A stretch of DNA of 64,000 nucleotides, taken from positions 124,001 to 188,000 of the forward strand of contig CALUXS010000002.1 in the NCBI GenBank assembly GCA_944324805.1. Direction: 5' to 3'. Under the pieces are notes generated by a model that saw only the letters and a list, made by a program, of their open reading frames with translations, searched no databases and had not been told where the DNA came from. The DNA is from an uncultured Acholeplasmatales bacterium. GTDB lineage: Bacteria > Bacillota_I > Bacilli_A > Acholeplasmatales > Anaeroplasmataceae. Below are positions 4,150-44,817 of the stretch, in pieces (positions within the stretch are counted from its first letter, which is position 1; the number at the start of each line of letters is the position of its first letter). The translations under genes were made by a program, and so were the position numbers.

Positions 4150-5616
4150 ATGAAAAAATTTATTGGTATAGACTTAGGAACTAGTGCTTTAAAGGCTTTA
4201 GTTTGTGATGAAAATAATAAAGCTCTTTTTACAATCGAAGAAAAATATGAAGTTATTTCTAATTTTAATCATTATAGTGAACAAAACCCTAATGACTGGA
4301 TTATAGCTTTAGACAATGTTTTTAAAAAAATTAATGGCAAGGTTGATGAGATTGAGGCGATTTCATTTAGTGGGCAAATGCATGGTCTTGTCATTTTAGA
4401 TAAAAATGATATTGTCATTAGAAACTGTATTTTATGGAATGATAATAGGGCTGTTGATGAAACAAATTATTTAAATGAAATCTTTGATAAGAATAAATTA
4501 AGTTCTATTACAGGTAATATGGCTTATGCTGGTTTTACTTTACCTAAACTTTTGTGGGTAAAAAAACAGGAAAGTATTAACTTTTCTAAAATTGATAAAA
4601 TTATGTTACCAAAGGATTATTTAGTTTATTATTTAACTAAAAAATTTGTAACTGATTATAGTGATGCCTCTGGTACTTTATTCCTAGATATAAACACAAA
4701 AAAATGGTCAGAGGAAATTTGTAAGTTAGCAGGAATTTCTACTGATAAGTTACCTAAACTTGTTGATAGCTTTTCATGCGTTGGAAATATTAGTCAAAAT
4801 ATAACTAGTAAATATAGTTTCTTAAAAAACACTAAGGTTATAGTTGGTGGAGCTGATAATGCAATAGCAGCAATTGGTACAGGAACAATTAACGAAGGAG
4901 AATGCAATATATCACTTGGAACTAGTGGTACAATTCTTTTTTCAAATGACAATTTGATAATACCTGAAAAGAATTCCTTGCATTCGTTTTGTCATGCTAA
5001 TGGAAAATATTATTTAATGGGCTGTATATTAAGTGCAGCTAGCTCTAGAAAATGGTGGTTAGAAGAAATAATTAAATCTAATGATTATTATAGTGATGAG
5101 AAGGCTATGAATAATGCTAGAACAAATAATTTATACTTTTTACCTTATTTATCAGGAGAAAGAAGTCCTCATAATGATTCATATGCTAAAGGAGCTTTTA
5201 TTGGCTTAACATCTACTACGAAAAGAGAAGAAATGTCCTTAGCAGTAATAGAGGGAGTAAGCTTTGCTTTAAAGGATTCGCTTGAAATAGCTAGATTGAA
5301 TGGCAAAAAAATAAATAGTGCTACTTTATGTGGTGGAGGTTCTAAAAGTAAATTATGGTGCCAAAAGCTTGCAACTATTTTAGGGCTTAAAATTAGAACA
5401 TTAGATAATGAACAAGGTCCAAGCCAAGGTGCAGTTTATATGGCAATGTTAGGTAGTGGTATATTTACGAATTTAAATACAATTAAGCAAAAATTTGTAT
5501 TTTATAGTGATGAATATATCCCAAATGAAGAAGAAAGAGATTACTACTTAAAAAAATATGATAATTATAAAAAACTTTATCCATTATTGAAAGATTTTTT
5601 CAAAACAGAAATATAA
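4150..5616 (+). CDS. xylB: xylulokinase
   Basis: This 488-residue FGGY-family kinase starts with MKKFIGIDLGTSALKAL, the phosphate-binding ATPase motif. It phosphorylates D-xylulose to xylulose 5-phosphate for the pentose phosphate pathway. Conserved segments include SFSGQMHGLV, ILWNDNRA, GGADNA, LGTSGTILFS, YLSGERSPHND and LCGGGSKSKLWCQ. An upstream in-frame ATG at 4120 would overlap xylA and add ten unrelated residues. The ATG at 4150 follows the xylA stop by one base and matches the family, so translational coupling is likely because no strong ribosome site is seen. Confidence 0.96.
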   Translation: MKKFIGIDLGTSALKALVCDENNKALFTIEEKYEVISNFNHYSEQNPNDWIIALDNVFKKINGKVDEIEAISFSGQMHGLVILDKNDIVIRNCILWNDNRAVDETNYLNEIFDKNKLSSITGNMAYAGFTLPKLLWVKKQESINFSKIDKIMLPKDYLVYYLTKKFVTDYSDASGTLFLDINTKKWSEEICKLAGISTDKLPKLVDSFSCVGNISQNITSKYSFLKNTKVIVGGADNAIAAIGTGTINEGECNISLGTSGTILFSNDNLIIPEKNSLHSFCHANGKYYLMGCILSAASSRKWWLEEIIKSNDYYSDEKAMNNARTNNLYFLPYLSGERSPHNDSYAKGAFIGLTSTTKREEMSLAVIEGVSFALKDSLEIARLNGKKINSATLCGGGSKSKLWCQKLATILGLKIRTLDNEQGPSQGAVYMAMLGSGIFTNLNTIKQKFVFYSDEYIPNEEERDYYLKKYDNYKKLYPLLKDFFKTEI

Positions 5617-7782: not shown

Positions 7783-9015
7783 ATGAGATTATTAGATGAA
7801 TTAAAAGAAAGAAATTTATTATTTGACGTAACAGATCCTAAGATTGCAGATGCACTTGAAAGTGAAAAGGTTTCATTTTACTTAGGAACAGATCCAACCG
7901 GAGATTCTCTTCATGTTGGGCATTTAGTAACTTTTTTAGTTGCTAAACGTTTACAAAATTGTGGTCATAAACCAGTTATTTTAGTTGGTGGTGCAACAGG
8001 ATTAATTGGTGATCCTAAACAACAAGGGGAAAGAAAAATGCTTACTCTTGATGTTACAAATGCAAACACTCTAGCATTAAAGAAACAAATTGAAGAGATT
8101 TTTAAATTTGATACTGTTGTAAATAACTACGACTGGATATCTAAAATAAATGTTATCGAATTCTTGCGTGATTATGGTAAAAATTTTAATGTTAATACAA
8201 TGATTAACAAGGAAACTGTAAAAGCAAGATTAGATTCAGGTATTTCATATACAGAATTTTCTTATCAAATTCTTCAATCACTTGATTGGCTTCATTTATA
8301 TAAAGAATATAATTGCAAGATGCAAATTGGTGGCCAAGACCAATGGGGAAATATGACTGCCGGAACCGATTTAATCCGTAAGAAGTTAGGTACTGAAGCA
8401 GAAGCATTTGCCTTTACAATTCCTTTAATTGTAAAATCAGATGGTACAAAGTTTGGTAAATCTGAAGGCGGACAAAGTGTATGGCTTGATAAAAATAAGA
8501 CTAATCCTTATGAATTCTATCAATTTTGGATTAATACACCTGATAATGAGGTTGAAATGCGCTTGAAACAATTTACTTTCCTTTCATTAGAGGAAATTAA
8601 AGATATAGTAGCAAAATGGCAAGAAAAGCCTGAAGAACGTTTAGCCCAAAAAATATTAGCTAAAGAAGTGACAACTTTTGTTCATGGCATTGAGGCTACA
8701 AATCAAGCTATTCATGTTAGTGAGGCTTTATTCAGTGGTGATTTGACAAGCTTATCAGCAGCTGAAATTGAAATGGGATTCAAGGATTTAAAGAGAGTTA
8801 ATGCCTTAGATAAGCCATTAATTGATATAGTAATAGAGGCAGGCTTAGCATCAAGTAAGCGTGAGGCACGTGAATTTATTACTAATGGAGCAATTACCCT
8901 AAATGGTAATAAAGCCGCTGATTTTAATCAAATTTTAGATAAGAGCATGGCGATAGAAGAAAAATTTATTGTTATTCGTCGTGGTAAAAAGAAATATGCT
9001 TTGGTGGTATTTTAA
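7783..9015 (+). CDS. tyrS: tyrosyl-tRNA synthetase
   Basis: This 410-residue class I synthetase charges tRNA-Tyr. The HIGH-type motif is DSLHVGHLV, the KMSKS-type motif is KFGKSEGG, and GGQDQWGNMTAGTDLIRK forms the tyrosine site. The C-terminal about 70 residues are an S4 RNA-binding domain (SKREAREFITNGAITLNG). The start at 7783 has a GGAGGAG site 6 bases away. It is controlled by the upstream tyrosine T-box. Confidence 0.98.
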   Translation: MRLLDELKERNLLFDVTDPKIADALESEKVSFYLGTDPTGDSLHVGHLVTFLVAKRLQNCGHKPVILVGGATGLIGDPKQQGERKMLTLDVTNANTLALKKQIEEIFKFDTVVNNYDWISKINVIEFLRDYGKNFNVNTMINKETVKARLDSGISYTEFSYQILQSLDWLHLYKEYNCKMQIGGQDQWGNMTAGTDLIRKKLGTEAEAFAFTIPLIVKSDGTKFGKSEGGQSVWLDKNKTNPYEFYQFWINTPDNEVEMRLKQFTFLSLEEIKDIVAKWQEKPEERLAQKILAKEVTTFVHGIEATNQAIHVSEALFSGDLTSLSAAEIEMGFKDLKRVNALDKPLIDIVIEAGLASSKREAREFITNGAITLNGNKAADFNQILDKSMAIEEKFIVIRRGKKKYALVVF

Positions 9016-9245
9016 TGCTAGAAAAAGATTTTAAAGGAAATAAACTATATTTTACAAAAGTTAGAGATTATATAGGACCTGTAACTTTAATGTATAGACC
9101 TAATAAAACTATTTTTCAAATAATGGATAACTATGTTATTGAGTATGATGGTAGATATTACATTATTGATGAGGTAAAATATCAAAATGTTAATTATTCA
9201 TTCTCTGATTTTGTTTTAGCATATCCTGATGTTTTAGGCTTTTAA
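9015..9245 (+). CDS. hypothetical protein coupled to tyrS
   Basis: This 76-residue soluble protein is rich in Tyr and Asp. Its ATG overlaps the tyrS stop by one base (TAATG), so it is translationally coupled. No family is recognised and no membrane segment or signal peptide is visible. It is followed 16 bases later by a phosphatase gene. Confidence 0.65.
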   Translation: MLEKDFKGNKLYFTKVRDYIGPVTLMYRPNKTIFQIMDNYVIEYDGRYYIIDEVKYQNVNYSFSDFVLAYPDVLGF

Positions 9246-9261
9246 GCTAAAAGGAGCAAAG

Positions 9262-9696
9262 ATGTTAAAAATATTATTTGTTTGTCATGGTAATATTTGT
9301 CGTAGTCCTATGGCTGAATTCCTTTTGAAAAAAAGAGTTAATGATTTAAACATCGCTTCAAATTTTCAAATTGAATCAAGAGCTACCTCTACTGAAGAAA
9401 TCGGAAATGGTGTTCATTATGGTACTAAGAAAATATTAAATTCTTTAGGAATAGATTGTAGCCAAAAAAGAGCCATGCAAATTACAAGGTCTGATTTAGA
9501 GTATTTTGATTATATATATTTAATGGATCATAATAATCTTTCTAATATTAGAAGAATGTTTGGAGATTCACCTAAATATAAGATGCTTTTAGAACGTGAT
9601 ATTAGTGATCCTTGGTACACAGGGAACTTTAAACAAACCTACCTAGACATTGAACTTGGATTAGATAAGCTATTAGAGGAAATAAAGAGGTTCTAG
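9262..9696 (+). CDS. low-molecular-weight protein tyrosine phosphatase
   Basis: This 144-residue enzyme has the P-loop FVCHGNICRSPMAE at residues 6-19, containing the catalytic C(X)5R. The general-acid loop DISDPWYTGNF lies near the C-terminus. It removes phosphate from tyrosine (possibly arginine) residues of proteins in the cytosol. The ribosome site AAGGAGC fits the ATG. It ends at a terminator, so it closes the tyrS operon. Confidence 0.93.
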   Translation: MLKILFVCHGNICRSPMAEFLLKKRVNDLNIASNFQIESRATSTEEIGNGVHYGTKKILNSLGIDCSQKRAMQITRSDLEYFDYIYLMDHNNLSNIRRMFGDSPKYKMLLERDISDPWYTGNFKQTYLDIELGLDKLLEEIKRF

Positions 9697-9710
9697 CCTC
9701 TTTTTTCTTT
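9685..9710 (+). terminator. intrinsic terminator of the tyrS operon
   Basis: AAGAGG pairs with CCTCTT across the loop TTCTAG, followed by a T-rich run. It overlaps the last codons of the phosphatase gene. Confidence 0.85.
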
Positions 9711-9760
9711 TTTTTATCCTTGTTTTATGATATAATTTTTTTCCTAAGGAGTTGTTTATT

Positions 9761-10156
9761 ATGAAAATGGATCAGAACTTAGTTGCCCCTTGTGGTATGA
9801 ATTGCAATTTATGTATTGGTCATCTAAGGGAAAAAAATAGATGTAATGGTTGTAGTAGTGGCAAAAGCTTACTTAGAAAAAGCTGTAGTAATTGTTATTT
9901 TAGAAAATGTGATTATCAAAAGGGATTTTGTTATCAATGTGAAAAATTTCCTTGCACGAGATTAAAAAAACTTGATTTAAGGTACAAAACTAATTATAAA
10001 ATGTCAATGATTGATAATTTGCATTTTATAAAGAAGGAAGGATTAGATTCTTTTCTTAAACAAGAAGAACAAAAATATACTTGCCCTAATTGTGGTAATA
10101 TACTTTCAGTGCATAGAGATTTTTGTATATTCTGTAAGAAAAAAATAAATGCTTAA
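9761..10156 (+). CDS. cysteine-rich DUF3795-like protein
   Basis: This 131-residue protein contains about 17 cysteines. The N-terminal VAPCGMNCNLCIGHLR and the CYQCEKFPC motif are typical of DUF3795, a family of unknown function thought to bind metal. The last 30 residues form a separate zinc-ribbon-like CPNCG...CIFCKK. The chosen ATG lies 11 bases after TAAGGAG; a second ATG two codons later is also possible. It has its own TATAAT-like promoter region after the preceding terminator. Confidence 0.75.
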   Translation: MKMDQNLVAPCGMNCNLCIGHLREKNRCNGCSSGKSLLRKSCSNCYFRKCDYQKGFCYQCEKFPCTRLKKLDLRYKTNYKMSMIDNLHFIKKEGLDSFLKQEEQKYTCPNCGNILSVHRDFCIFCKKKINA

Positions 10157-10232
10157 TTATTATAATTGTGCTATAATATTTATGAACTTTTGGGATAATT
10201 TAAGGAAAGGAAAAGCTTGTGGTTAAAGTAAT

Positions 10233-10673
10233 ATGTATATAAATTTTGTTAATGAAACTACTGAGGATGTAGAAAAATATAAAAAACTGATTAAAGGCAT
10301 TTTTAAACAATTTAAAAATAAAAAAGAAATATTTAGTATCATCTTTGTATCAGCAGAAGAAATAAGAAAAATTAATAGAGAGTATAGAAATATTGACCGT
10401 GTAACTGATGTTATTAGCTTTGCATTAAATGATAATGATGAAGGTGCTATGTTTAATGATGGTGAGATAGGAGATATTTTTATATGTCTAGATAGAGCAA
10501 GGGAACAAGCACAAGATTATGGACATAGTATAGAGCGTGAGGTAGGCTTTTTAGCAGTTCATGGTTATCTTCATTTATCAGGCTATGACCATATGACACC
10601 AGAAGAAGAAAAGGTAATGTTTAGTAAGCAAGAACAAATTTTAGAGAAGGCAGGTTTAAAACGTGGAGAATAA
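10233..10673 (+). CDS. ybeY: endoribonuclease YbeY (rRNA maturation)
   Basis: This 146-residue protein ends with the metal-binding HGYLHLSGYDH motif of YbeY, which binds zinc and takes part in 16S rRNA 3' end maturation and ribosome quality control. The middle RVTDVISFAL and GEIGDIFIC segments also match. An extended -10 box TGCTATAAT ends at 10177. Its stop overlaps cdd by 11 bases, starting the usual ybeY-cdd-era gene order of Firmicutes. Confidence 0.95.
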   Translation: MYINFVNETTEDVEKYKKLIKGIFKQFKNKKEIFSIIFVSAEEIRKINREYRNIDRVTDVISFALNDNDEGAMFNDGEIGDIFICLDRAREQAQDYGHSIEREVGFLAVHGYLHLSGYDHMTPEEEKVMFSKQEQILEKAGLKRGE

Positions 10674-11073
10674 AATATTAGATTTAATTAATAAAGCTAA
10701 AGAAGCTAGAGAAAGAGCGTATGTTCCTTATTCAAAGTTTAAGGTAGGAGCTGCAGCTTTATTAAAAGATGGTACCTATGTTTTAGGTTGTAATGTAGAA
10801 AATGTTAGCTATGGTTTAACAAATTGTGCCGAGAGGACTTGTCTTTTTTCACTAATTGCTCAAGGATATAATCCAAAAGATGTAGAAATGTTTTGTGTTA
10901 TTGGTTCAACTAGTAATCCTATTAGCCCTTGCGGTGCTTGTCGTCAGGTGATGGATGAATTATTAAATCCAAACGCTGTTGTTGTATTAGCTAATTTAAA
11001 GGGTGATTATAAAACTTATAAAGTTAGTGAACTATTACCTTATACATTCAAGGAGATTGAGCATGCAGAATAA
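10663..11073 (+). CDS. cdd: cytidine deaminase
   Basis: This 136-residue enzyme deaminates cytidine and deoxycytidine for pyrimidine salvage. The zinc site is formed by CAERTCLF (with the catalytic Glu) and PCGACRQVMDE. The start is a GTG that overlaps the ybeY stop by 11 bases, and the end overlaps era by 11 bases, so all three genes are coupled. Confidence 0.96.
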   Translation: MENKILDLINKAKEARERAYVPYSKFKVGAAALLKDGTYVLGCNVENVSYGLTNCAERTCLFSLIAQGYNPKDVEMFCVIGSTSNPISPCGACRQVMDELLNPNAVVVLANLKGDYKTYKVSELLPYTFKEIEHAE

Positions 11074-25556: not shown

Positions 25557-26750
25557 ATGGGTTATACACATATTAACACATTATTAATTGGAAATGGATT
25601 TGATTTAAGTTTAGACTTAAAAACTAGTTATAATGATTTTCATAGTGTTTTAAAAGATGTTTTTGATACAAAAATTAGAAATCATCACATATTTATTGAT
25701 AAATGGAAAAGTGAAGGAATTAAATTATCTGAAGAATATGGAGCAGCAGAACTTTTTTATAAGATATATGATAATAAGGATAATTTTTTTGTTAAATACT
25801 TTTCAAATGCCAAATATAATGAATGGAATGAACTTGAAAAGGAATTAGAAAAAATATATTTAACACTAGATATATTATTAGAAGATATACACTCAATAAT
25901 ATTAAACGAAAAAAAAGTTATGATGAGCAATAAAAGATATATTATTAGAAATATATACAACTATCCAACACCTCATATTTTTGACTACATAGATAAGTGG
26001 AAAGATTTTGAATTTTCTATGAATGAATCTTTTGTTGATGAAGGATTGTTTTATGATAGATATTTCGAAACAAATCCCATATCAAAGATTAATCAAATAG
26101 AGAGAATAAATGAACTTAAAGCTACGATTCCTAAACTGTTATATGAAGATTTATTATTGTTTTGTAATTTGTTTACATTGTATTTAAATGTTTTTACTAA
26201 TAATATTCCAATAGTAAAAAATAAGATATTCGCTAGCTATATTTTTTCATATAACTATACAGAAGTAGCAGAAAAAATCATAAATGCAGATAACATAATA
26301 CATCTACATGGAAAGTTTAAGTATGATGAAAATGTAAATATTAATGGTTGGAAGAATGATAGTATTGTTTTTGGTGTTGATGATAAAACAAAATTTATAA
26401 ATTCAGGATTTGAGAGATTTAAAAAAACAATCATTCGATGTATGATAGATAGCGATATTAGTAAACTAGATGATAATTTAAAATCAGCTAATAAAATTCC
26501 TAATTTGAAAAAAGCAATATGGATTGTGGGTCATTCCTTAGACTTGATAGATGAGGACTCATTAAGAATGATACTAAGAAATAATTGGCAAGAATATGTT
26601 GTTTTTTATTATAACGAAGAAGCCAAATTTAACCTTATTTATAATCTTAGAGCAATATTAGGAGTAGATAACTACGAAAAACTATATAATAGTGGTTCAA
26701 TATTATATAGACCTGTTTCAGATTTTTCTAATAGATTAAAAATTGGTTAA
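25557..26750 (+). CDS. abiH: AbiH-family abortive infection protein
   Basis: This 397-residue protein has the N-terminal LLIGNGFDLSLDLKTSYNDF, central FSYNYTEV and IHLHGKF, and C-terminal AIWIVGHSLDLIDEDSLR. These segments define AbiH, a lactococcal phage abortive infection family whose fold looks nucleotide-binding. The ATG follows GGAGAG. Its operon partner is the DUF3883 protein. A second AbiH is at 36875, also behind a nuclease-like gene. Confidence 0.88.
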   Translation: MGYTHINTLLIGNGFDLSLDLKTSYNDFHSVLKDVFDTKIRNHHIFIDKWKSEGIKLSEEYGAAELFYKIYDNKDNFFVKYFSNAKYNEWNELEKELEKIYLTLDILLEDIHSIILNEKKVMMSNKRYIIRNIYNYPTPHIFDYIDKWKDFEFSMNESFVDEGLFYDRYFETNPISKINQIERINELKATIPKLLYEDLLLFCNLFTLYLNVFTNNIPIVKNKIFASYIFSYNYTEVAEKIINADNIIHLHGKFKYDENVNINGWKNDSIVFGVDDKTKFINSGFERFKKTIIRCMIDSDISKLDDNLKSANKIPNLKKAIWIVGHSLDLIDEDSLRMILRNNWQEYVVFYYNEEAKFNLIYNLRAILGVDNYEKLYNSGSILYRPVSDFSNRLKIG

Positions 26751-32269: not shown

Positions 32270-32645
32270 TAATCTACAATTATTAATGGTGTAAAAATAT
32301 TTTTAAATATGTTACTACGTTTCCAGTTAAAGTGATATTTTGAGATGATTATGTTTAATATGTTCACCATACAATATATCTTTATAAAGATGAAAATATT
32401 ATTCGTTGTATTCATATTTTGGTATATTTTAATCTACTATAATTCTTAAATTATTTTATCTATAGTAAACAAAAACATTAGTTATAACAACTTAATACTA
32501 AATTGCTAAAGAGAGTAAAAAAAATCTAGAATGAACAAGGACATTTTTAGTTATAGATAGATTTTTATTTAATTTGGTTAAACGCAAAATATTATTAAAA
32601 AGCTCAAAGTAATTTAAAATAGAAATGAAAATAGGGGGGATGTTT
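32270..32645. other. gap upstream of the STAND gene
   Basis: About 375 AT-rich bases with no recognised gene. The strong G-rich ribosome site of the next gene lies at 32633-32639. Confidence 0.5.
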
Positions 32646-35600
32646 ATGATTACATGGAATGAATTTGATATGTATAATTCTAATGTAAAAAAATCGTTTG
32701 AAGATATGACAAGATTGATTTTTAAAAAAAAATATATAGGAGATATTACCTATAATTTATTGATTAATCATAATAATCCCGGAATTGAAACTGAGCCTAT
32801 TTCAATTGCAGGTGTTTTAACAGGATTTCAATCTAAACATTTTTCAAATAAAGTTGACTATTCGGATATAAAATCATCAATTGAGATGACAATAAAAAAT
32901 TATCCTTTAGTGAAAAAGATAGTATTATTTTGCAATAAAAAAATAAGTACGGATACTATTTTATATAACAATAATATTTCAATACCAGCCTCAAAAAATA
33001 ATATTGTAATTGATTTATTTACTGATGAAAATATTTTAGATTATGTATCAATATCTTGTAAAGAAATTATACCTATATTTTTTAATGGTAAATATTTGAG
33101 TATGAAACAAATGATCGAATTAAATAATAATAAACTTCAATCTATTAATAAGAAATATTTTAAAGAAAATCATATTGTACTAGAAATTGAGGATAAGATA
33201 AATAAATTTTTATTAAGTGAATTGCATATTAATGAGATTAAAAAAGGTATTGACACATTGTGTTCTAATATCTCGAAAGAAATTGATTGTAAAAATTATC
33301 CATTTTTGAGTGAAAAAGAAAAGTATTTGTTGAAAAGATTCAAATCTAGTAAAGATGAATTAATGAAAATTTTAAAAATAGATGACATAAATAATTCTTT
33401 AAAGTGGCATGAATTTGGTATTAGATTAGATGATGTATGTAGTAAGATTTCTATATTATCTGATGAGTTTGATATTTTGTATGATAAGTCAAATGAATCA
33501 TATGAATCATATGAAGAAATAAGTAGGTTACTTAATGAATGTAAAAATCATTGCTTAATATTTTTGAATGATTTTAAAGTAAATTTTAAGTATTTTGAAA
33601 AGAAAATAATGATTTTAGAAGGGGCAGCAGGAACAGGCAAGACGCATTTATTATCAAGAATTGTTGATAGTTATTGTGATAATAATTATGTTATGTTTTT
33701 TTTGGGTAACAAGATTATTGGTAATGAAAACCCATCAGATAGTATGGTGTCAAATTTAGGTCTAAATGGCATTTCTTTTATAGATTTACTTGAATCATAT
33801 GATTCATTAGCAGCTTCTACAGGTGAAAAAATAATAATTGTATTTGATGCATTGAATGAAGTTTATTCTTATAGAGATTGGAAGAATTATTTACCTATTT
33901 TATTTTCAAAAATTGAAAAATTAGAAAATGTAAAGTGTATTTTCAGCATAAGAAACACATATTTAAATTCGATATTTGATGATGGAATATTAGAAAAAAT
34001 GGATAATAATTATCGTTATTGTATACTTAAACATTATGGTTTTTTATTCAATAATTATGCCATAAAAGAATTTATGAAATTCTATGCTATTGATTATACT
34101 AGTTCTATAGGAAATGTATGGATGACTAATCCATTATATTTGAAAATTTTTTGTGAGATTAATAAAGGAAAAAGTTTTAAAGATATGGAAAAAAATCCAT
34201 ATAAAGTGTTTATGAAGTTTGTTGAGGTTGAAGAAAAGAAAATAAGAGAAAATAAAGATTTAGATGTAAATATAAAAAGTTATACTAATATAGTTGATTC
34301 TTTTTCAAAAAAATTAGTTGAAAAGAATACCTATTATATGGATTCTTTTGAATTGTATAAGATGTTTTCATATGATACTGAACTTGAAATAGTTGTAAAA
34401 GAGTTAGTTAAAGGTGAAGTTTTATTGGCAAAAATTTTTAATGAAAAGGAAGTAGTAGAATTTTGTTATGAAAAAATATATGATTTTGCATTTTCTAAAT
34501 GTATATTGGAAAATTGTCAATGCTATCACGATTTAATACGCAATATAAAAAAAATATCTACTACTAATAATGATGATACATTAGTTAATCCTAAATTATT
34601 TGGAATTTTATCTATATTGTTTAGTGAATGCCGACAAAAATATTCTAAGGATTTATTGAGAATATTATTAAGAAGTAAAATTACAAAGAAATATTATGCA
34701 TCACTTATCGATTCATATTTTGAGTCTTTTAGTTTAAATCCTAGTATTGTTGATAAAAAAATATTTACAAAATTGATGTTCAATTCCCAATATGGTTCTT
34801 TTTCGCGTTGTTTAGATATTATTCTTTATAACTTTAAATATATTAATAATTTTGATTTTTTTATTTTTGATTATTTATTTTCATTAGAATGTAATAAATT
34901 AGATTTGTTATGGACAATTAATATTAACAAAGAATATCAAGCCGATACTATGTTGAAAGATTTTTTATTATATTGTGAACATGATTTGAATGCTAATAAA
35001 AATCGAATTCAAATTTTAATTTTCCTTTGTTGGACTCTTTCATCTAGTTGTAGAGAATTAAGGGATAGGGCAACCAAAATTATCAGTATTAATCTAATTA
35101 ATGATTATAAAGTAATGTTTGAATTGTTAAAAAAGTTTAAAAATATAAGTGATGTGTACATTAAAGAGAGAATTTATGCAGCTATTTACGGAGCAATTCT
35201 GAATTCAAATGATTCTAATAAATCATATGAATTTAATATGGTTGAATTTATAAAGAGAGAAGTTTTTAAAAAAATTAGTAAAAACATTGATATTCTTGTA
35301 CGTGATTATTGCTGTGGAATCGTTTATTTTATCTCAAATAAGTATGGATTACAAATAGAAGATTTTATATTTCCAATGTACAAAAGTAAAGTTAAACTTA
35401 AAAAAATAGGAATACAAAACATTAAAAAAATCTATTCAATTGGAGATAAAAATTATTCTAGCGGGTTAAAGTATATATTTAACTCAATGTATCCAGATAT
35501 ACATGTTCCTAGTAGTGGAAATATGTATGGTGATTTTGGAAGGTATGTTTTCCAAAGTAGGTTATCATATTTTGGAAAAGTAGTTAATGATGAATTTGTT

Positions 35601-36824
35601 CATTTAAATCAATGGGAAATTGAAATTGTTTTTTCAAATGCATACCAATATATAGTTAAAGGCTTGGGATATAGAGATTCATATTTTGAAGAATATGATA
35701 CTAGTATTAATCGTGAATATTATGGAAGAGGCTCCCGTCTAGTAGAGAGAATTGGTAAAAAGTATCAAAGGATAGCAATGAATAGAATGCTTGCTATTGT
35801 TTCGGAAGTATATGATTTTCAAGAGGTTTATTCTGACTTTCAAACATATAAATACAATGGTGCCTGGAGACCTTTTATGAGAGACATAGATCCTTCTATT
35901 TATATTTCAAAAAATAATAGGAATTTTGATTTGGGTTTTGAAATGTATAGTAATGAGTATGAAAATTGGGATATAAATGATAAGGAATGGTATAAAAAAA
36001 GTAATCCTTCACGCGAGTTTAATGAAAATTGCATCTTGGTTGACTCTTTAAAAAGAAATTGGGTTACATTGTTTACATCAAAAACAGCATATAGTAATAA
36101 AGATTATCGCGTGGAAAGACAAACGTATTGGAGAGAATTGAGCTGTTGCTTAATTTCAAATAATGATTTAGAAGATTTCATTAATGAAGTTAAAAACATT
36201 AGTTTTTATGGTAGATGGGCACATGCATCTGAAGGAAAGTCAACATACTCGATATATTTAAAGGAACATTATTCAGCTTTAGCTAGTAGATGTGAATATA
36301 AAAAAGATGAATTTGATTCGCTACATTTAAATGTAGGATATGAGAGGAAATTGGTTAAAACAATTGAATTTAAAGATAATATGTTTTTTGAAGAAGTGGA
36401 AAAAGAACAAAATGTTCCAAAATATGTTGATTCAAAAAAAATAATGGCATTACATAACAGTTATTCATGGGATAATGAATATGACTTTTCGTTGGATGAA
36501 ACTATACATGTTTGTTTGCCAATTAATTTAATTGTGACATTTTTTAATTTAGATATGAAGGAACCTGGAATTTGGTATCAAGATAAAAATGTAGTATGCG
36601 CTGACTTTTCTTTCGTAAAGAATTCTAATATTGATGGGTTATACATTAGAAAGGATTATTTAGACCAATTTTTAAAGCAAAACAATTACACAATTATTTG
36701 GATTTGTTTGGGCGAAAAGACACATTCAAATGGGCACATGGTAGATGGTTTTAATAAGATTAGTGGTTTAATATATTACAAAGATGCTAAGTTGACTGAA
36801 ATTGATATTTATGAAAATAATTAG
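32646..36824 (+). CDS. large STAND-type ATPase with N-terminal nuclease-like domain
   Basis: This 1392-residue protein starts with a PD-(D/E)XK-like region: FEDMTRLIFKKKY, then GIETEPISIAGVLTGFQSKH with the E...QxK core. A P-loop, ILEGAAGTGKTHLL, lies near residue 325. A Walker B motif, IIIVFDALNE, lies near 400 and a sensor-like FSIRNTYLNSI follows. The remaining 900 residues are a long helical repeat-like region without recognised domain. This architecture matches nuclease-STAND defence proteins of the Avs kind, where phage protein binding to the C-terminus activates the nuclease. The assignment to a particular Avs family was not tested. ATG 32646 is 6 bases after AGGGGGG; ATG 32640 is too close. 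An AbiH gene follows 50 bases later. Confidence 0.7.
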   Translation: MITWNEFDMYNSNVKKSFEDMTRLIFKKKYIGDITYNLLINHNNPGIETEPISIAGVLTGFQSKHFSNKVDYSDIKSSIEMTIKNYPLVKKIVLFCNKKISTDTILYNNNISIPASKNNIVIDLFTDENILDYVSISCKEIIPIFFNGKYLSMKQMIELNNNKLQSINKKYFKENHIVLEIEDKINKFLLSELHINEIKKGIDTLCSNISKEIDCKNYPFLSEKEKYLLKRFKSSKDELMKILKIDDINNSLKWHEFGIRLDDVCSKISILSDEFDILYDKSNESYESYEEISRLLNECKNHCLIFLNDFKVNFKYFEKKIMILEGAAGTGKTHLLSRIVDSYCDNNYVMFFLGNKIIGNENPSDSMVSNLGLNGISFIDLLESYDSLAASTGEKIIIVFDALNEVYSYRDWKNYLPILFSKIEKLENVKCIFSIRNTYLNSIFDDGILEKMDNNYRYCILKHYGFLFNNYAIKEFMKFYAIDYTSSIGNVWMTNPLYLKIFCEINKGKSFKDMEKNPYKVFMKFVEVEEKKIRENKDLDVNIKSYTNIVDSFSKKLVEKNTYYMDSFELYKMFSYDTELEIVVKELVKGEVLLAKIFNEKEVVEFCYEKIYDFAFSKCILENCQCYHDLIRNIKKISTTNNDDTLVNPKLFGILSILFSECRQKYSKDLLRILLRSKITKKYYASLIDSYFESFSLNPSIVDKKIFTKLMFNSQYGSFSRCLDIILYNFKYINNFDFFIFDYLFSLECNKLDLLWTININKEYQADTMLKDFLLYCEHDLNANKNRIQILIFLCWTLSSSCRELRDRATKIISINLINDYKVMFELLKKFKNISDVYIKERIYAAIYGAILNSNDSNKSYEFNMVEFIKREVFKKISKNIDILVRDYCCGIVYFISNKYGLQIEDFIFPMYKSKVKLKKIGIQNIKKIYSIGDKNYSSGLKYIFNSMYPDIHVPSSGNMYGDFGRYVFQSRLSYFGKVVNDEFVHLNQWEIEIVFSNAYQYIVKGLGYRDSYFEEYDTSINREYYGRGSRLVERIGKKYQRIAMNRMLAIVSEVYDFQEVYSDFQTYKYNGAWRPFMRDIDPSIYISKNNRNFDLGFEMYSNEYENWDINDKEWYKKSNPSREFNENCILVDSLKRNWVTLFTSKTAYSNKDYRVERQTYWRELSCCLISNNDLEDFINEVKNISFYGRWAHASEGKSTYSIYLKEHYSALASRCEYKKDEFDSLHLNVGYERKLVKTIEFKDNMFFEEVEKEQNVPKYVDSKKIMALHNSYSWDNEYDFSLDETIHVCLPINLIVTFFNLDMKEPGIWYQDKNVVCADFSFVKNSNIDGLYIRKDYLDQFLKQNNYTIIWICLGEKTHSNGHMVDGFNKISGLIYYKDAKLTEIDIYENN

Positions 36825-36874: not shown

Positions 36875-38050
36875 ATGAATAATTATGGACAATACATTAA
36901 TGAAGATTTTTATGAAAAAAGTATTAGTTCTTTTGAGCAAAAAGGAATTAAAGTTGTTTTGGGGAATGGATTTGATTTATTTTGTGGACTAAGAACTAGA
37001 TATTTGCATTTCTTTCTTAGTGAGAAAAGTAGATATTCGAGTATAAGAAAATGGTGTGAATCATTTAAAGATATAGAAGTTTATATTTCAAGAAAAACAT
37101 CCAATTGGAACTGTTTTGGTCCACAAATAAAGTGTAATGTTAAGTTTAATATTTGGGATTTATATTTTACATTATGTGTAGGTGAAAAAGATTATGATTG
37201 GTGTGATATTGAGGATGAAATGCTTAAAACATTTAATAAAGGAGAAAATAAGCTACATTGGAGGAGAGTATTTAGAATTGTTAATAATGATTTAGAATAC
37301 GATGAAGCAACTAACGAGGAACATATTATAGTTGGTTATATAATTGATAAAAACTGTGATGTTTCATCGCTTGAAAAATTTTATATGTTTTTACTAGAGG
37401 AATTGAAACTTTTTGAAAAACATTTTGGTGAGTATGTAAACAATGAGTATCTATTAAATCATAATGAATATTTACGGAATGCTTCTATATTCTATTCTCT
37501 TTTGAAGACTTTTGATGATGATGTAACTTCGAAGGAAACATTCAATTATACTGATAATAGTATTATGAATTTTATTTCGTCAAGTGAATTTTTAAATGAT
37601 ATTAAACACATTAATGGGGATTACAAGAACCCGATTTTCGGTATTGATTCATCAAAGATTGATGCTGATAGTCCAGAATTTATATTTACAAAAGTTTCTA
37701 GAAGAATGATTAATTCAGTTTTAAATAAACTTCCTGTTGAATCTTCATTTGATAAAGAATTTAACCATATTGTAGTTTTTGGACATTCGCTAAATGTACA
37801 TGATTTTAATTATTTTTTTCCAATTTTTGATTATTTGGATATATTGAATATAATGAAAAATAGCACTATTACTTTTGTATATTATGTTTATGATAAGAAT
37901 AAAAAAGAGGAAATTGTAATTAATAATATTAAAATGATTGTTCGATTGATTGACGCATATGAGAAATATGCTGGAAAAAATAGAGACAATAGATTAATTG
38001 ATACATTAACTATAGATGGTAGAATTAAATTTATTGAGATTGATAAATAA
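36875..38050 (+). CDS. second AbiH-family protein
   Basis: This 391-residue protein shares the AbiH layout: VVLGNGFDLFCGLRTRYLHF near the start, HINGDYKNPIFGIDSSKI in the second half, and HIVVFGHSLNVHDFNYF near the C-terminus. It is clearly diverged from the AbiH at 25557. It lies behind the STAND gene and is probably cotranscribed with it, so it may be an accessory or a second effector. Confidence 0.8.
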   Translation: MNNYGQYINEDFYEKSISSFEQKGIKVVLGNGFDLFCGLRTRYLHFFLSEKSRYSSIRKWCESFKDIEVYISRKTSNWNCFGPQIKCNVKFNIWDLYFTLCVGEKDYDWCDIEDEMLKTFNKGENKLHWRRVFRIVNNDLEYDEATNEEHIIVGYIIDKNCDVSSLEKFYMFLLEELKLFEKHFGEYVNNEYLLNHNEYLRNASIFYSLLKTFDDDVTSKETFNYTDNSIMNFISSSEFLNDIKHINGDYKNPIFGIDSSKIDADSPEFIFTKVSRRMINSVLNKLPVESSFDKEFNHIVVFGHSLNVHDFNYFFPIFDYLDILNIMKNSTITFVYYVYDKNKKEEIVINNIKMIVRLIDAYEKYAGKNRDNRLIDTLTIDGRIKFIEIDK

Positions 38051-38074: not shown

Positions 38075-38536
38075 ATGTGTTTGATATGCGATAGAATAAA
38101 GATGATAGAAGAGGGAACTAATCCCTATTTTGTTAAGGAGCTAAAAACAGGGTATGTTGTCATTGGTGATAATCAGCATTTTTATGGTTATACATTGTTC
38201 TTGTATAAAAATCATAAATATACAGAATTGTTTCAAATGCCAAAAGAAGAAAGAGAAATTTTTTTAGACGAGATGACTAAAGTTGCCGAAACTGTATATA
38301 ATGCTTTTAATGCAGAAAAGATAAATTATGAATAGTTAGGTATGGGAGATGCCCACTTACATTGGCATATTAATCAAAGGAAATATGGTGATTTAGGTAG
38401 TTATGGTAATAAAGGTAGAGGTCCAGTGTGGTGGTATCCGATGGAAAAGATGTATAGTAATGAAACATGTCCATCCGAAGAACAGTTAAAAGAACTTAAA
38501 GAGAAATTATTAACTGGGTTAAATAAACTAGATTGA
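38075..38536 (+). pseudogene. HIT-family hydrolase interrupted by an in-frame amber stop
   Basis: The frame from ATG 38075 reads a HIT domain (MCLICDRIKMIEEGTNPYFV, HQ-type strand GDNQHFYGYTLFLYKNH). It meets TAG at 38333-38335 after KINYE, then continues in frame with LGMGDAHLHWHINQ to 38536. The catalytic HxHxH (HLHWH) is behind the stop, so the first product would be dead. A Leu codon (TTG) to TAG is a likely change. The intact protein would be 153 residues. HIT proteins hydrolyse nucleotide conjugates. Confidence 0.75.
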
Positions 38537-38834
38537 TATTAAGTATATTAAATATAATTTACGAATAAAATGATATTTTAAAAAAATGTATGACAGTATC
38601 ATAGAACAACTTATTGATTTAGTATTAATTGTAATTTGGATATGTGTTCAATAGTTCGCAGCTTTTAAAAATATTGTGAAAAAGTGGCTAAATAGAAAAA
38701 AGCGTTATGCTTGAAATTTTGAATACGATTCTTATATTTCTTTATATAATGTACAAATGTGCTAAGCTTATATATTTAAACAGATATATTTTATTCGTAA
38801 TTTAACAATAGTGAAAAAAGGGGAGTTTAGAATA

Positions 38835-41474
38835 GTGATAGAAATAAATGAGGATAACCTAAAATGGGCGTTTAAGAAGTTGAAGACATATGCATATTAC
38901 AGTAATAGTTCAAATTACTTGTACGACAAAATTTTGGAGATTGAACATGAGTATGAAGAAGACCCAAATATATTTAAAGAATATTCTAACGCGTTAATAG
39001 AAATAGCAAAGAAAGAATTTAATTTATTAAGTGAATATAAATTAGAATATAAAGTATATCCTAAAAAAAATAAGATAAGAATTGGTGAATCTGGTGATGT
39101 GTCTATAGATGAAGTAAATATATTTGTTGATATGCCTATGATGTTCTTCTTGAATGATATTCTATTTACACTAGAATTGTTTAATATTAGTAAAGAGAAT
39201 AGTAACACTAGTAATTACTTTGGTAATAAATTTGATGAACATCTGGATAGTAATAATTTAATTAACAATAAATTACTATTTGAAAATTACACCAAGCAGT
39301 ACAAGAAATGGAAAGATAAAATTATTGATTCTGTTAAAGACGATTGTGAATTGAAGAATATGACATTGGTAAAGTTAGACTTTAAAAGATGCTTTTATAA
39401 TGTTCAATTCGATATTAATGAACTAATTGATAAATACGGGATTGATGATTCTATTCCATGTGTTAAAATTAGTAAACATTTATATAGACGATTATCTAAA
39501 ATGTATTTTGATTTAATAGGTAAAGAAAGGAATAAGAATCAGGTTTTATTACCAGTGGGACTTTTCTCTTCTAATGTATTACAAAATATATTATTTAGTG
39601 ATTTTGATAAAAAAATTAACGATTCCAATGAAGTTGTTGCCTTTTCAAGATATGTTGACGATATGCTTATCCTTGTAAAAGGAAAGTTGTTAAAAGAAAA
39701 TATATGTGATAAAATACCTGGTTTGACACTTGAAAATGAACATTACTTTATGAATGTTCATAATTCTTTAATAAAACAAGCGCTTCCGCTTAATATGAGT
39801 AAAATCGAGGTAAACTCCGCAAATAATGCGATGAGTGTTAGAAAAAATGTTAGAAGAATTACATCCCCATCATTTGTTGATATGGAAGAATATTTAGAGG
39901 GTGAAATATTTGATGATGACCATACAAGTTTAAAGAAAATAATAAAGACAGTAAAAGAATTTGTAAACAAAGAAGCCAATGGTAATAAAGAATTTCTAGT
40001 ATATATAAATAAATTGAGGGATTATGAAATAATAAATGCTTTTTCTATATGGAAACTAATAATAGGAAAGTTAAATATTAATGAAAGAGTAAATTTTATA
40101 AAAAGGGTCGACAATATTATTTCCAAATTAAAAATAAGCGATCAATTTTTTAGAGAAAATTTAATACAAAGTACTCAAAAAACATTGGAAAATGAGATAA
40201 ATATCATCAAAGAGTTGCTCACTAATAATAAATTTATGATGCTAGAAATATCTCAAATGGAAATATATGAGTATATAAATGACATTGTTTATAAAAAAAA
40301 TCATTATGAATTTTTTCCAATAAATGTAAGTATTGAAGATGTATTTTTTTATGTGTCTATTAATTATTCTAATTTGGAAAATTATATTCAACATGTAACT
40401 GATATATATAAAGATGTAAATGGATTTGCTTTTAATGATGATTTAGATTTGAAAAACTTAAAAATTGAAAAACAAACAGTCTACACTGATAGTTCTTTAT
40501 CATCAATATATTTTATCTCAAAAACAGAGGGTGAGTTAAGTACATCGGCGAAAATACTATTCAATGAATTAAGTAATATTGAAAAAAAATATGACATTAA
40601 ATCATATGTATCGATTTCAAGTATAATGATGCCTGAAAAAGAAATAAAGGAGACAGATATTCAGTGTATTTATCCTTCGACATATGATACAAATGAAATC
40701 ATGAAATTAATTGTTGAGGCAAAGAGAAATAATGCCAAATATATTATCTTTCCGGAGTTTTGCATTCCATATACTAAAATATGTAAAATTGTTAAATTTT
40801 GTAAAAAAAATAAGATATCTTTGATTTCTGGGTTAACACACTATATTGACAATAATAAAGCAATAAATTTTACTGCAATATATGATCATCATACGGGAAT
40901 ATTTTTATTAAAAAGAAAAAATTATTACCCATATGATGAATTAGCTACATTGTCATTTAAAGGTATAAGTCCTTCGATTGTACAACCCTATTATATAGTA
41001 GTAAAAAATGAGCATATAAAGTATAGTACTATGACATGTTTTGAAGCTACTAATATAATGGATAGAGCACTGTTAAAAGATAAGATTAATTTATTGTTTA
41101 TGCCAGTATATAATAAAGATACCAATTATTTTTCATCTATTATTTCTTCTACATCTAGAGATTTATCTGCCTTTATTGCTCAATCAAATAACTCTGAATA
41201 TGGAGATTCAAGAATAACAGCCCCATGTGATACAATCCATAAAGAAATTGTACAGGTAAAAGGCGGTATAAATAATTATGTAGTTGTTGGTGAATTGGAT
41301 TTTGAAGGTATGTTTAACAAACATAAAGAGATGGATGAATTTCTGGATGAAATAAAAAACTTTAAACATAATGAGATTTCATACAAAAATAAAAATGAAG
41401 AATTGAAGAGAAATAGGTTTAAACCACTTTCTGCAGGAACAGATTTTTCACATAGAAATAAAAATGGTTTATAA
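38835..41474 (+). CDS. reverse transcriptase-nitrilase fusion, DRT type 1 defence protein
   Basis: This 879-residue protein joins two domains. The N-terminal half is a reverse transcriptase, with the palm Asp D182 in VKLDFKRCFYNV and D275-D276 in RYVDDMLIL. The C-terminal third is a nitrilase fold with the complete triad E641 (FPEFCIP), K695 (KRKNYYPYDE) and C735 (MTCFEAT). RT-nitrilase fusions are the UG1 group, known as defence-associated reverse transcriptase type 1. Both active sites look intact. The GTG at 38835 is 9 bases after GGGGAG; an upstream GTG at 38811 has no such site. A PD-(D/E)XK-like gene follows. Confidence 0.88.
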   Translation: MIEINEDNLKWAFKKLKTYAYYSNSSNYLYDKILEIEHEYEEDPNIFKEYSNALIEIAKKEFNLLSEYKLEYKVYPKKNKIRIGESGDVSIDEVNIFVDMPMMFFLNDILFTLELFNISKENSNTSNYFGNKFDEHLDSNNLINNKLLFENYTKQYKKWKDKIIDSVKDDCELKNMTLVKLDFKRCFYNVQFDINELIDKYGIDDSIPCVKISKHLYRRLSKMYFDLIGKERNKNQVLLPVGLFSSNVLQNILFSDFDKKINDSNEVVAFSRYVDDMLILVKGKLLKENICDKIPGLTLENEHYFMNVHNSLIKQALPLNMSKIEVNSANNAMSVRKNVRRITSPSFVDMEEYLEGEIFDDDHTSLKKIIKTVKEFVNKEANGNKEFLVYINKLRDYEIINAFSIWKLIIGKLNINERVNFIKRVDNIISKLKISDQFFRENLIQSTQKTLENEINIIKELLTNNKFMMLEISQMEIYEYINDIVYKKNHYEFFPINVSIEDVFFYVSINYSNLENYIQHVTDIYKDVNGFAFNDDLDLKNLKIEKQTVYTDSSLSSIYFISKTEGELSTSAKILFNELSNIEKKYDIKSYVSISSIMMPEKEIKETDIQCIYPSTYDTNEIMKLIVEAKRNNAKYIIFPEFCIPYTKICKIVKFCKKNKISLISGLTHYIDNNKAINFTAIYDHHTGIFLLKRKNYYPYDELATLSFKGISPSIVQPYYIVVKNEHIKYSTMTCFEATNIMDRALLKDKINLLFMPVYNKDTNYFSSIISSTSRDLSAFIAQSNNSEYGDSRITAPCDTIHKEIVQVKGGINNYVVVGELDFEGMFNKHKEMDEFLDEIKNFKHNEISYKNKNEELKRNRFKPLSAGTDFSHRNKNGL

Positions 41475-41570
41475 GTATTGTATGTATTTAAATGGAATGA
41501 AAACAAAAATATATAATAAAATTACTATGAGTTTTGTTCATATAATTTAAAGTAAAGAAAGGATGATTTT

Positions 41571-42335
41571 ATGTTTACATCATATTTATCTAGCGAATAT
41601 TTAGAAATTCTAAAAAAGTTTAGTACTAAACGATATTTTGGTCTTGTTGCTATTTCCCATATTTTAAAGAAGCCAGAGTTGAAAAATGAGGAAATAAAAG
41701 CTTTTTATAAGGAACACGCACTGGTTTCTAAAAATAAAATTATTTCGGAAAATTATATTGATGTTAATAAAGATGAACATCCAATTATTTGTGGCGGAGT
41801 TACAGAATATTTAACAAAAATTAGGTTGGCAAGAAGAATGAATATAGGATTAGAAGAACTAAGATTTTTCGATGATATTAAAAAGAAAAAATATTTAAAA
41901 ATGAGTGATGAGGAATTAGCTTTTGCACTTTATGAACCAGATGTTTTTTTTAGAAGTGGCATGAAGTATACCCAAGAAATTTTAGACCATAAGGCTTTGA
42001 TAATAAGCAAAGCTAAGATATTATCGGATGTTTCTATTAACTTAATCGATAAAGAATTCCCGATAATAAATTCCATTGATTTTCACCCAGAAGGTCATGT
42101 TATGTATAATGGTAGAGTTGCAGTTAATGGTGATTCTGATTTACTAATCAACAATTGTTTAATTGATTTTAAAACAAAGAAAGAATCATCCATATCTTTG
42201 GATGATAGAGCCCAATTATTTGCATATACTATAAATAAATACATGAGAGATGGACAGGAATATGATAAGGTATATGTCTTGAATCCTAGACATTATTACA
42301 TTTGCGAATTAATAAATGAAAGTAGAGAGAAATAA
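41571..42335 (+). CDS. PD-(D/E)XK-like nuclease domain protein
   Basis: This 254-residue protein has a C-terminal core typical of RecB/Cas4-like nucleases: an Asp in VAVNGDSDLLI, then NNCLIDFKTKKESSISLDD and RAQLFAYTINKY. The DxK-type motif is IDFKTK. The N-terminal half is helical and unrecognised. AAAGGATG sits before the ATG. It is 96 bases behind the reverse transcriptase gene and may be its partner, but a link to DRT1 is not established. Confidence 0.6.
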   Translation: MFTSYLSSEYLEILKKFSTKRYFGLVAISHILKKPELKNEEIKAFYKEHALVSKNKIISENYIDVNKDEHPIICGGVTEYLTKIRLARRMNIGLEELRFFDDIKKKKYLKMSDEELAFALYEPDVFFRSGMKYTQEILDHKALIISKAKILSDVSINLIDKEFPIINSIDFHPEGHVMYNGRVAVNGDSDLLINNCLIDFKTKKESSISLDDRAQLFAYTINKYMRDGQEYDKVYVLNPRHYYICELINESREK

Positions 42336-42491
42336 TTAGCATTTTCTACTGTTTACAATAATGTTCTTATGTTAAGCATCAAATGTGTCTCTTGCTTTGT
42401 ATTATAATATGACTATCGATAGTGTTTTGAGTTATTTATAAAATGAAATGATTGCAAAGTTTCAATGCGAGATGGAGTAGTGGTGATATTA

Positions 42492-43016
42492 ATGATAAAA
42501 AAAGAAAAATATTTGTATTGGCTGAATTTGGAAAATCCTAATTTTGACATAGAAGTTGTTTTTCGAGAAATGTATTCTAGAATTGGTTTGATTTTTCATA
42601 CAATACAAATGAATGAATATAATATTGCAAACATATTATCATTAGAAGAATTCGAAAATGAAAATATAGATATGTTCACTGAGAGTGATATTGAACGTAT
42701 TAGAAAAAATATAGATACAAAATTTTATGAACTTTCTGAACTCACCTTTGGTAAATTAAAAAAACAGGTTGAGAAATCAAAATATCTTGCTGATGTCGAT
42801 ATGGCAGCACTAGAAAAAATTGTTGAGTATAGAAACTATTTGGCTCATAGATGTTTTAAAGAAAAATTATTGAATAATGAATTAAAATCAATAGAAGATG
42901 CAGATAAATTTGTGGATGAATTAAATGAGTTTGAAGTTATGGTTAAAGATTTTAATGAATGGCTTCTTGATATATTCGAAAAAAACAAAATAAAACGAAT
43001 ATGGGTAATGAAATAG
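42492..43016 (+). CDS. HEPN-like protein, candidate RNase toxin
   Basis: This 174-residue helical protein carries EYRNYLAHRCF near residue 116, an Rx4H motif as in HEPN RNases. Helices before and after it fit the four-helix HEPN bundle. HEPN toxins cleave RNA and usually have an MNT antitoxin; none is adjacent. The ATG at 42492 has GGTGAT upstream; an in-frame ATG at 42465 would add nine residues. It is the last gene of the second module. Confidence 0.55.
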   Translation: MIKKEKYLYWLNLENPNFDIEVVFREMYSRIGLIFHTIQMNEYNIANILSLEEFENENIDMFTESDIERIRKNIDTKFYELSELTFGKLKKQVEKSKYLADVDMAALEKIVEYRNYLAHRCFKEKLLNNELKSIEDADKFVDELNEFEVMVKDFNEWLLDIFEKNKIKRIWVMK

Positions 43017-44024: not shown

Positions 44025-44817
44025 ATGAATAAAATTGATAAAGTGTTAGATATAGTAAATGAAAATAAAGAAATTGTAAAAAATATTGCTGAACCAGCAT
44101 CAAAAGAAGTTGGTGGAATATTAGGTACTTTTACTGGTTTTTTTAACAATGTAGTCCTATATCCGTTGAAATGTTTGAATATGACTTTTGAGCAAAAAGC
44201 AATTCAATTTGAAAAAAAAGGTACAAGAAAAATATAATTATATTCCAGAGCAAAATAGAGTCGAATGTCCAGTTAATATTTTAGGACCAACGTTAGAAGG
44301 TTTAAAATATAATATTGATGAAGAATATATGCAAGAATTATTTGCTAACTTGTTAGGTGCAAGTATGGATAAAACTAAACAATCTACTGTCCACCCTAAA
44401 TATGTGAAAATTATTTCTGAAATGAATGAAATAGATGCAAGAGTATTCTATCATTTAACTAATAAGTACATTGGATATGTTAAATCTGGTAAAGTCAATA
44501 TTACTATTAAAGGAACTGATCAATATTATGTTAATGCTCTTCCTGAATGGATTATTGAAGATGATATTCAAGGTATAGATATATTTAGCGTTTCTAAAGC
44601 TTTTATAAGGTTATCTAATTGGGGATTATTAGATTTAATGTTTGATAGACATGCAGGGACGAGTGTTTTAAATAATTTATATCAAAAACAAGAAGTTCAA
44701 GATATATTTAATAAATATTTATTAGAGAATTCTAATGTCGAGTTAAAAGGTACTGATTGTATTATCAATATAAATGATGAGGGTAAAACATTTGCAAAAA
44801 TTGTATTTGGAAAATAA
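44025..44817 (+). pseudogene. DUF4393-like protein split by a one-base frameshift in an A8 run
   Basis: The first frame (ATG 44025, TTAGGTG upstream) encodes NKIDKVLDIVNENKEIVKNI and a Gly-rich segment PASKEVGGILGTFTGF, then stops at 44237. The second frame continues the family with VQEKYNYIPEQNR, NILGPTLEGLKYNIDEEYMQ and ELFANLLGASMD to 44817. Removing one A from the run at 44212-44219 joins both frames into one protein of about 263 residues. DUF4393 proteins occur in defence islands. Transcriptional slippage could still yield some full product. Confidence 0.7.

Follow-up and report, generated by a model that had tools for sequence, protein, structure and literature searches.

The window, a 64,000-nucleotide stretch of DNA, includes a gene at 38835-41474 (+ strand) predicted to encode a reverse transcriptase (RT) fused to a nitrilase. 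The gene is followed closely by a candidate nuclease gene and preceded by a gap free of open reading frames (ORFs), and the locus raises the question of which type of defence RT is present, and whether either neighbouring region forms part of the same system. The reading proposed here, which we consider probable, is that 38835-41474 constitutes a single-gene UG5-nitrilase defence system working like DRT1, with the nuclease gene an independent member of the surrounding island and the upstream gap an ordinary intergenic region.

The RT-nitrilase gene and its family

The longest version of the frame in the ORF list extends from 38811 to 41474 and uses a GTG start, giving 887 aa. Starting instead from the GTG at 38835 yields a protein of 879 aa, and this start is preferred because AGGGGAG lies just upstream of it. 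The RT core of the 879 aa protein contains D182 and a YVDD box at residues 273-276, and is followed by a middle region (residues about 330-610), the nitrilase (residues about 615-850) with E641, K695 and C735, and a C-terminal FKPLSAG motif that includes K863 and A867. By direct reading and in a 10-sequence alignment of fused homologues, D182, D275 and D276 of the YVDD box, and all three nitrilase residues are invariant, and there is no internal stop in the frame. The preliminary description of an intact 879-residue protein with both YVDD and the E-K-C triad is thus borne out, and the product is predicted to be an intact two-part phage-defence enzyme.

Assignment to a family rests on PADLOC profile scores. 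The best profile, RT_UG5-nitrilase [PDLC03780] (5.3e-98, 327.6 bits), matches both the RT and nitrilase parts at a level well outside chance, and a further UG5-nitrilase model [PDLC02995] matches at 4e-38. The Drt1a profile for DRT1 (UG1) gave 1.5e-17 and 60.8 bits, and was not the best profile with full-length coverage, as would be expected for a member of that family. Because of this difference between the RT_UG5-nitrilase and Drt1a scores, the product is classified from its sequence as a class 3 UG/Abi RT of the UG5-nitrilase type rather than as UG1/DRT1. According to a published classification, C-terminal nitrilases are found in both unknown group 1 and unknown group 5 (PMC8934634). The window protein resembles the UG5-nitrilase RTs in having its nitrilase fused C-terminally and in length, with 879 aa compared to 907 profile positions. 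However, identity to the other UG5-nitrilase members found here, as measured in the 10-sequence alignment, is only about 20-32%, and the window RT and its closest homologue, in locus L033, make up a divergent branch. This class of defence enzymes, whose mechanism was described only recently and for DRT1, gains a divergent and intact member in the window gene.

The downstream nuclease candidate

The next gene, at 41571-42335 on the same strand, begins with an ATG 96 bp after the RT stop and predicts a protein of 254 aa. The sequence includes GDSD-x8-DFK-x13-QLFAY, in which D190, D199-x-K201 and Q215-x3-Y219 are invariant among its homologues. This looks like a Cas4/RecB-like PD-(D/E)XK signature and makes the protein a candidate nuclease, in agreement with the preliminary description of a Cas4/RecB-like protein close behind the RT. 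In PADLOC, it is matched by RTasPDDEXK [PDLC03797] (1.2e-6) and PDC-S61 [PDLC05052] (1e-5), and the catalytic core is common to all three. However, the RTasPDDEXK match (26.4 bits) is restricted to model positions 134-192 of 226, about 60 core residues rather than most of the model. RTasPDDEXK proteins would also be expected to lie consistently beside a UG/Abi RT, but most homologues of the 254 aa protein do not, being RT-adjacent at 2 of the nuclease-homologue loci examined. Searches found nothing above the Pfam cut-off, nothing in NCBIfam and no sequence relative in the PDB. The AlphaFold model has a mean pLDDT of 53.5, which is of low confidence and too poor for a structure search.

It had been suggested that this protein is a conserved partner of the RT. 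The question was approached both from the RT loci to their neighbours and from the nuclease homologues to theirs. The comparison took in 11 RT loci and some 10 nuclease loci, almost all of them from a single bacterial class. The search for homologues of the 254-residue protein beside other RTs was run on UG5-nitrilase loci, and the 11 fused genes compared were those of the window, L030, L032-L035, L037-L040 and L074. Only the window and L030 carry a member of the nuclease family beside the RT gene, and in L030 it is found 200 bp upstream of the RT; it is absent beside the other nine.

The nuclease homologues, with 55-65% identity across some 250 aa, are mostly found beside CBASS genes, as cargo on phage contigs, or alone in chromosomes (some neighbour names for L027-L062 were read directly from translations). 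A CD-NTase gene and one for a Cap15-like receptor adjoin the homologue in L031, and that on the viral contig L062 follows recombinase genes and lies among other defence-like genes. An AIPR-like gene is near the homologue in L027, and a transposase-like ORF precedes that in L042. Those in L028 and L029 stand alone in a chromosomal context, with the L028 frame open only if TGA is read as a residue, and the copies in L045 (Mycoplasma struthionis) and L055 are degraded or partial. Phylogenetic trees place the two RT-adjacent nucleases apart, each in a clade with full support, and likewise assign the two RTs to separate clades. Co-inheritance of nuclease and RT was rejected, as the window and L030 pairs are not sister pairs.

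Because nine of the 11 loci lack the nuclease, its homologues are mostly without an RT, and the RT-adjacent forms belong to separate clades, 41571-42335 most likely belongs to the defence island as a gene in its own right, and the suggested conserved partnership is not upheld. Nucleases are common in defence islands. The neighbour-against-neighbour comparison of the loci showed that AbiH and nuclease-helicase-type genes recur too, and recurring neighbours of these kinds are typical of such islands.

At two of the remaining loci, other types of nuclease gene adjoin the RT. In L035, a Cas4/RecB-like protein of 203 aa (4383-4994) starts 45 bp downstream of the UG5-nitrilase RT, and a profile comparison showed no similarity between it and the nuclease of the window. 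In L074, a DnaQ-like exonuclease ORF is beside the RT.

These genes bear on an alternative that we regard as unlikely, namely that the window nuclease is a real but facultative partner, which would either trim or remove protein-linked DNA adducts, setting or releasing a dormant state of the enzyme, or act as a second effector. Such a role would explain how the length or removal of the adducts is controlled. It is consistent with the close spacing of the two genes on one strand with no terminator-like site between them, with the homologue upstream of the second RT in L030, and with the unrelated Cas4-like and DnaQ-like genes at the third and fourth RTs. Co-occurrence of the nuclease and UG5-nitrilase genes among 395 genomes in a sample of the class gives P=0.007 with the window genome included, but P=0.098 when it is left out. 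The same considerations that favour an independent gene, including the general frequency of nucleases in defence islands, argue against a partner, as does the different gene order of the window and L030 pairs. Furthermore, DRT1 protects without any partner (PMC13275509).

A broader form of this idea would have UG5-nitrilase RTs repeatedly recruiting unrelated nucleases (the PD-(D/E)XK family, Cas4-like and DnaQ-like) to serve as interchangeable accessories, which by trimming or clearing protein-linked DNA would set the timing of nitrilase release. This appears quite improbable.

Searches of plasmids, phages and viral contigs for further loci added little. One viral contig, L064, carries a split UG5-type system (7995-10863) in which an ORF for a 646 aa RT is followed by a separate ORF for a 307 aa nitrilase, and two TIR-like genes precede it.

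The region upstream of the RT gene

The preliminary description also noted about 300 ORF-free bases before the RT gene, and considered them as a source of a template RNA. In the ORF list, the gap (38537-38834, + strand, 298 bp) indeed lacks any ORF of at least 50 aa. It was examined by folding, by comparison with Rfam, by a DNA search within the genus, by alignment with the upstream region of the nearest homologue, and by reference to the spacing in other homologues. Folding is no better than that of shuffled sequences (z -0.3 on the + strand and -1.0 on the - strand), Rfam yielded no match even at E values of up to 1, and searches of 7 other genomes of the genus revealed only short AT-rich matches and no clear homologue. 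The 300-nt regions upstream of the RT homologues exhibit no common folding trend, with z ranging from -2.6 to +1.5. The RT gene follows the preceding ORF by 2 nt in L038 and by 30 nt in L037, too closely for an upstream RNA to fit in these loci.

The gap contains a 17-nt inverted repeat (38555-38571 and 38788-38804), with 16 of 17 positions paired and arms 216 nt apart, so placed that it flanks most of the gap; one as good was seen in 1 of 200 shuffles. The repeat is present as a single copy in the genome. Only one copy of the gap was found in the genome, and the possibility that it is a repeated mobile element was rejected.

An ordinary intergenic region is the most likely reading of the gap. 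A template or cofactor RNA encoded there, of the sort present in DRT2, DRT9 and DRT10, is very unlikely: the lack of ORFs would allow for an RNA, and the inverted repeat could close a long stem, but the folding score on the + strand, the Rfam and same-genus results and the spacing in L038 and L037 all point the other way. A structured ncRNA beside the RT gene, the mark of RNA-templated systems of the DRT2/9/10 kind, was not detected by these searches, and the class 3 enzymes that have been tested are template-free (PMC13275509).

Comparison with DRT1

In a profile search of the PDB, the top match to the window RT-nitrilase was DRT1 [9YFD] (1.2e-29), with the RT and nitrilase regions aligning separately. 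The YVDD box of 9YFD aligns to that of the window RT family, and C1116 of 9YFD is in the C735 column. K1219 and A1223, in the 9YFD sequence read from the profile output, are spaced exactly as K863 and A867 are, and the two pairs correspond. In DRT1, these two residues are in a C-terminal loop that forms a lid over the nitrilase site of a neighbouring subunit, and mutants in either have defence cut to the level of a C-terminal deletion (PMC13275509). All 10 homologues have K863, and 8 of them keep A867, the other two having FKNTPPN and FKMTPPN in place of the motif. This shows that the essential C-terminal lid motif of DRT1 reaches into the UG5-nitrilase branch.

The window protein therefore resembles DRT1 in the order of RT, middle region and nitrilase, in YVDD and the E-K-C residues, and in the K-x3-A of the lid. 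It differs in length and in family score. The priming serine of DRT1, S402, is reported to be DRT1-specific and not conserved in other class 3 DRTs (PMC13275509). The area around residues 330-400, relevant to an equivalent of this serine, aligns poorly between the families. A further difference is that some DRT1 loci include drt1b, a gene for a membrane protein, whereas no such gene was identified here. The label "DRT type 1" in the preliminary description is appropriate insofar as the gene is a defence-type RT-nitrilase of the same broad class as DRT1, located in a defence island, but the type itself needs to be changed to UG5-nitrilase. A true DRT1 (UG1) is extremely improbable and was rejected, since the domain order, nitrilase chemistry and lid motif are all as in DRT1 but the Drt1a profile scores far below RT_UG5-nitrilase and the protein is 879 aa long versus 1,229 aa for 9YFD.

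DRT1, DRT5S and DRT5L synthesize DNA without a template, including when RNase A is present (PMC13275509). From their names, we infer that DRT5S and DRT5L are UG5 proteins, though the term "UG5" does not appear in that report. In DRT1, the adducts bring nitrilase tetramers together as dormant filaments, and its response to infection is abortive infection that requires both the RT and the nitrilase (PMC13275509).

The family placement, the order of the domains, the catalytic residues and the lid motif are features of the window protein itself. Because the last three of these agree with DRT1, DNA synthesis, assembly, trigger and effect on the cell most likely follow a DRT1-like scheme in the window protein. 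By this analogy, the RT domain would attach DNA that is short and semi-random to the very polypeptide of which it is a part, with no nucleic acid template. The DNA adducts would drive nitrilase tetramers to assemble and a dormant higher-order state to form; in this state, the C-terminal lid (K863...A867) would be positioned over the nitrilase site of a neighbour. Phage infection would then release the nitrilase, which would damage an essential metabolite and stop the infected cell.

The defence island

The RT-nitrilase gene sits in a defence island. A full-length gene at 32625-36824 encodes an Avs2-like (AVAST type 2) protein of 1,399 aa (PADLOC 3e-154). As it is below the NCBIfam cut-off for Avs2 (419 versus 1000 bits), it is classified from these scores as a divergent Avs2. 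Downstream of it and still upstream of the RT gene is an AbiH-family gene (36875-38050, + strand; Pfam PF14253, 9.5e-13), and a second AbiH-like gene is at 25557-26750. The RT gene of L033, too, has an AbiH-like gene about 4 kb away.

On the other side, the gene next to the nuclease (42465-43016, + strand) predicts a HEPN-like protein of 183 aa that contains an RNxxxH motif of the HEPN RNase type (RNYLAH, by direct reading) and gives a weak HEPN match (0.021). Its homologues are present in relatives that do not have the RT-nitrilase, one of which, in the family relative G025, is 60% identical. An Abi_alpha gene is located at 44188-44817.

The segment 38075-38536 corresponds to a HIT-family-like gene with an HLHWH motif, and is interrupted by one in-frame TAG at 38333-38335. 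It looks like either a recent pseudogene or an assembly error.
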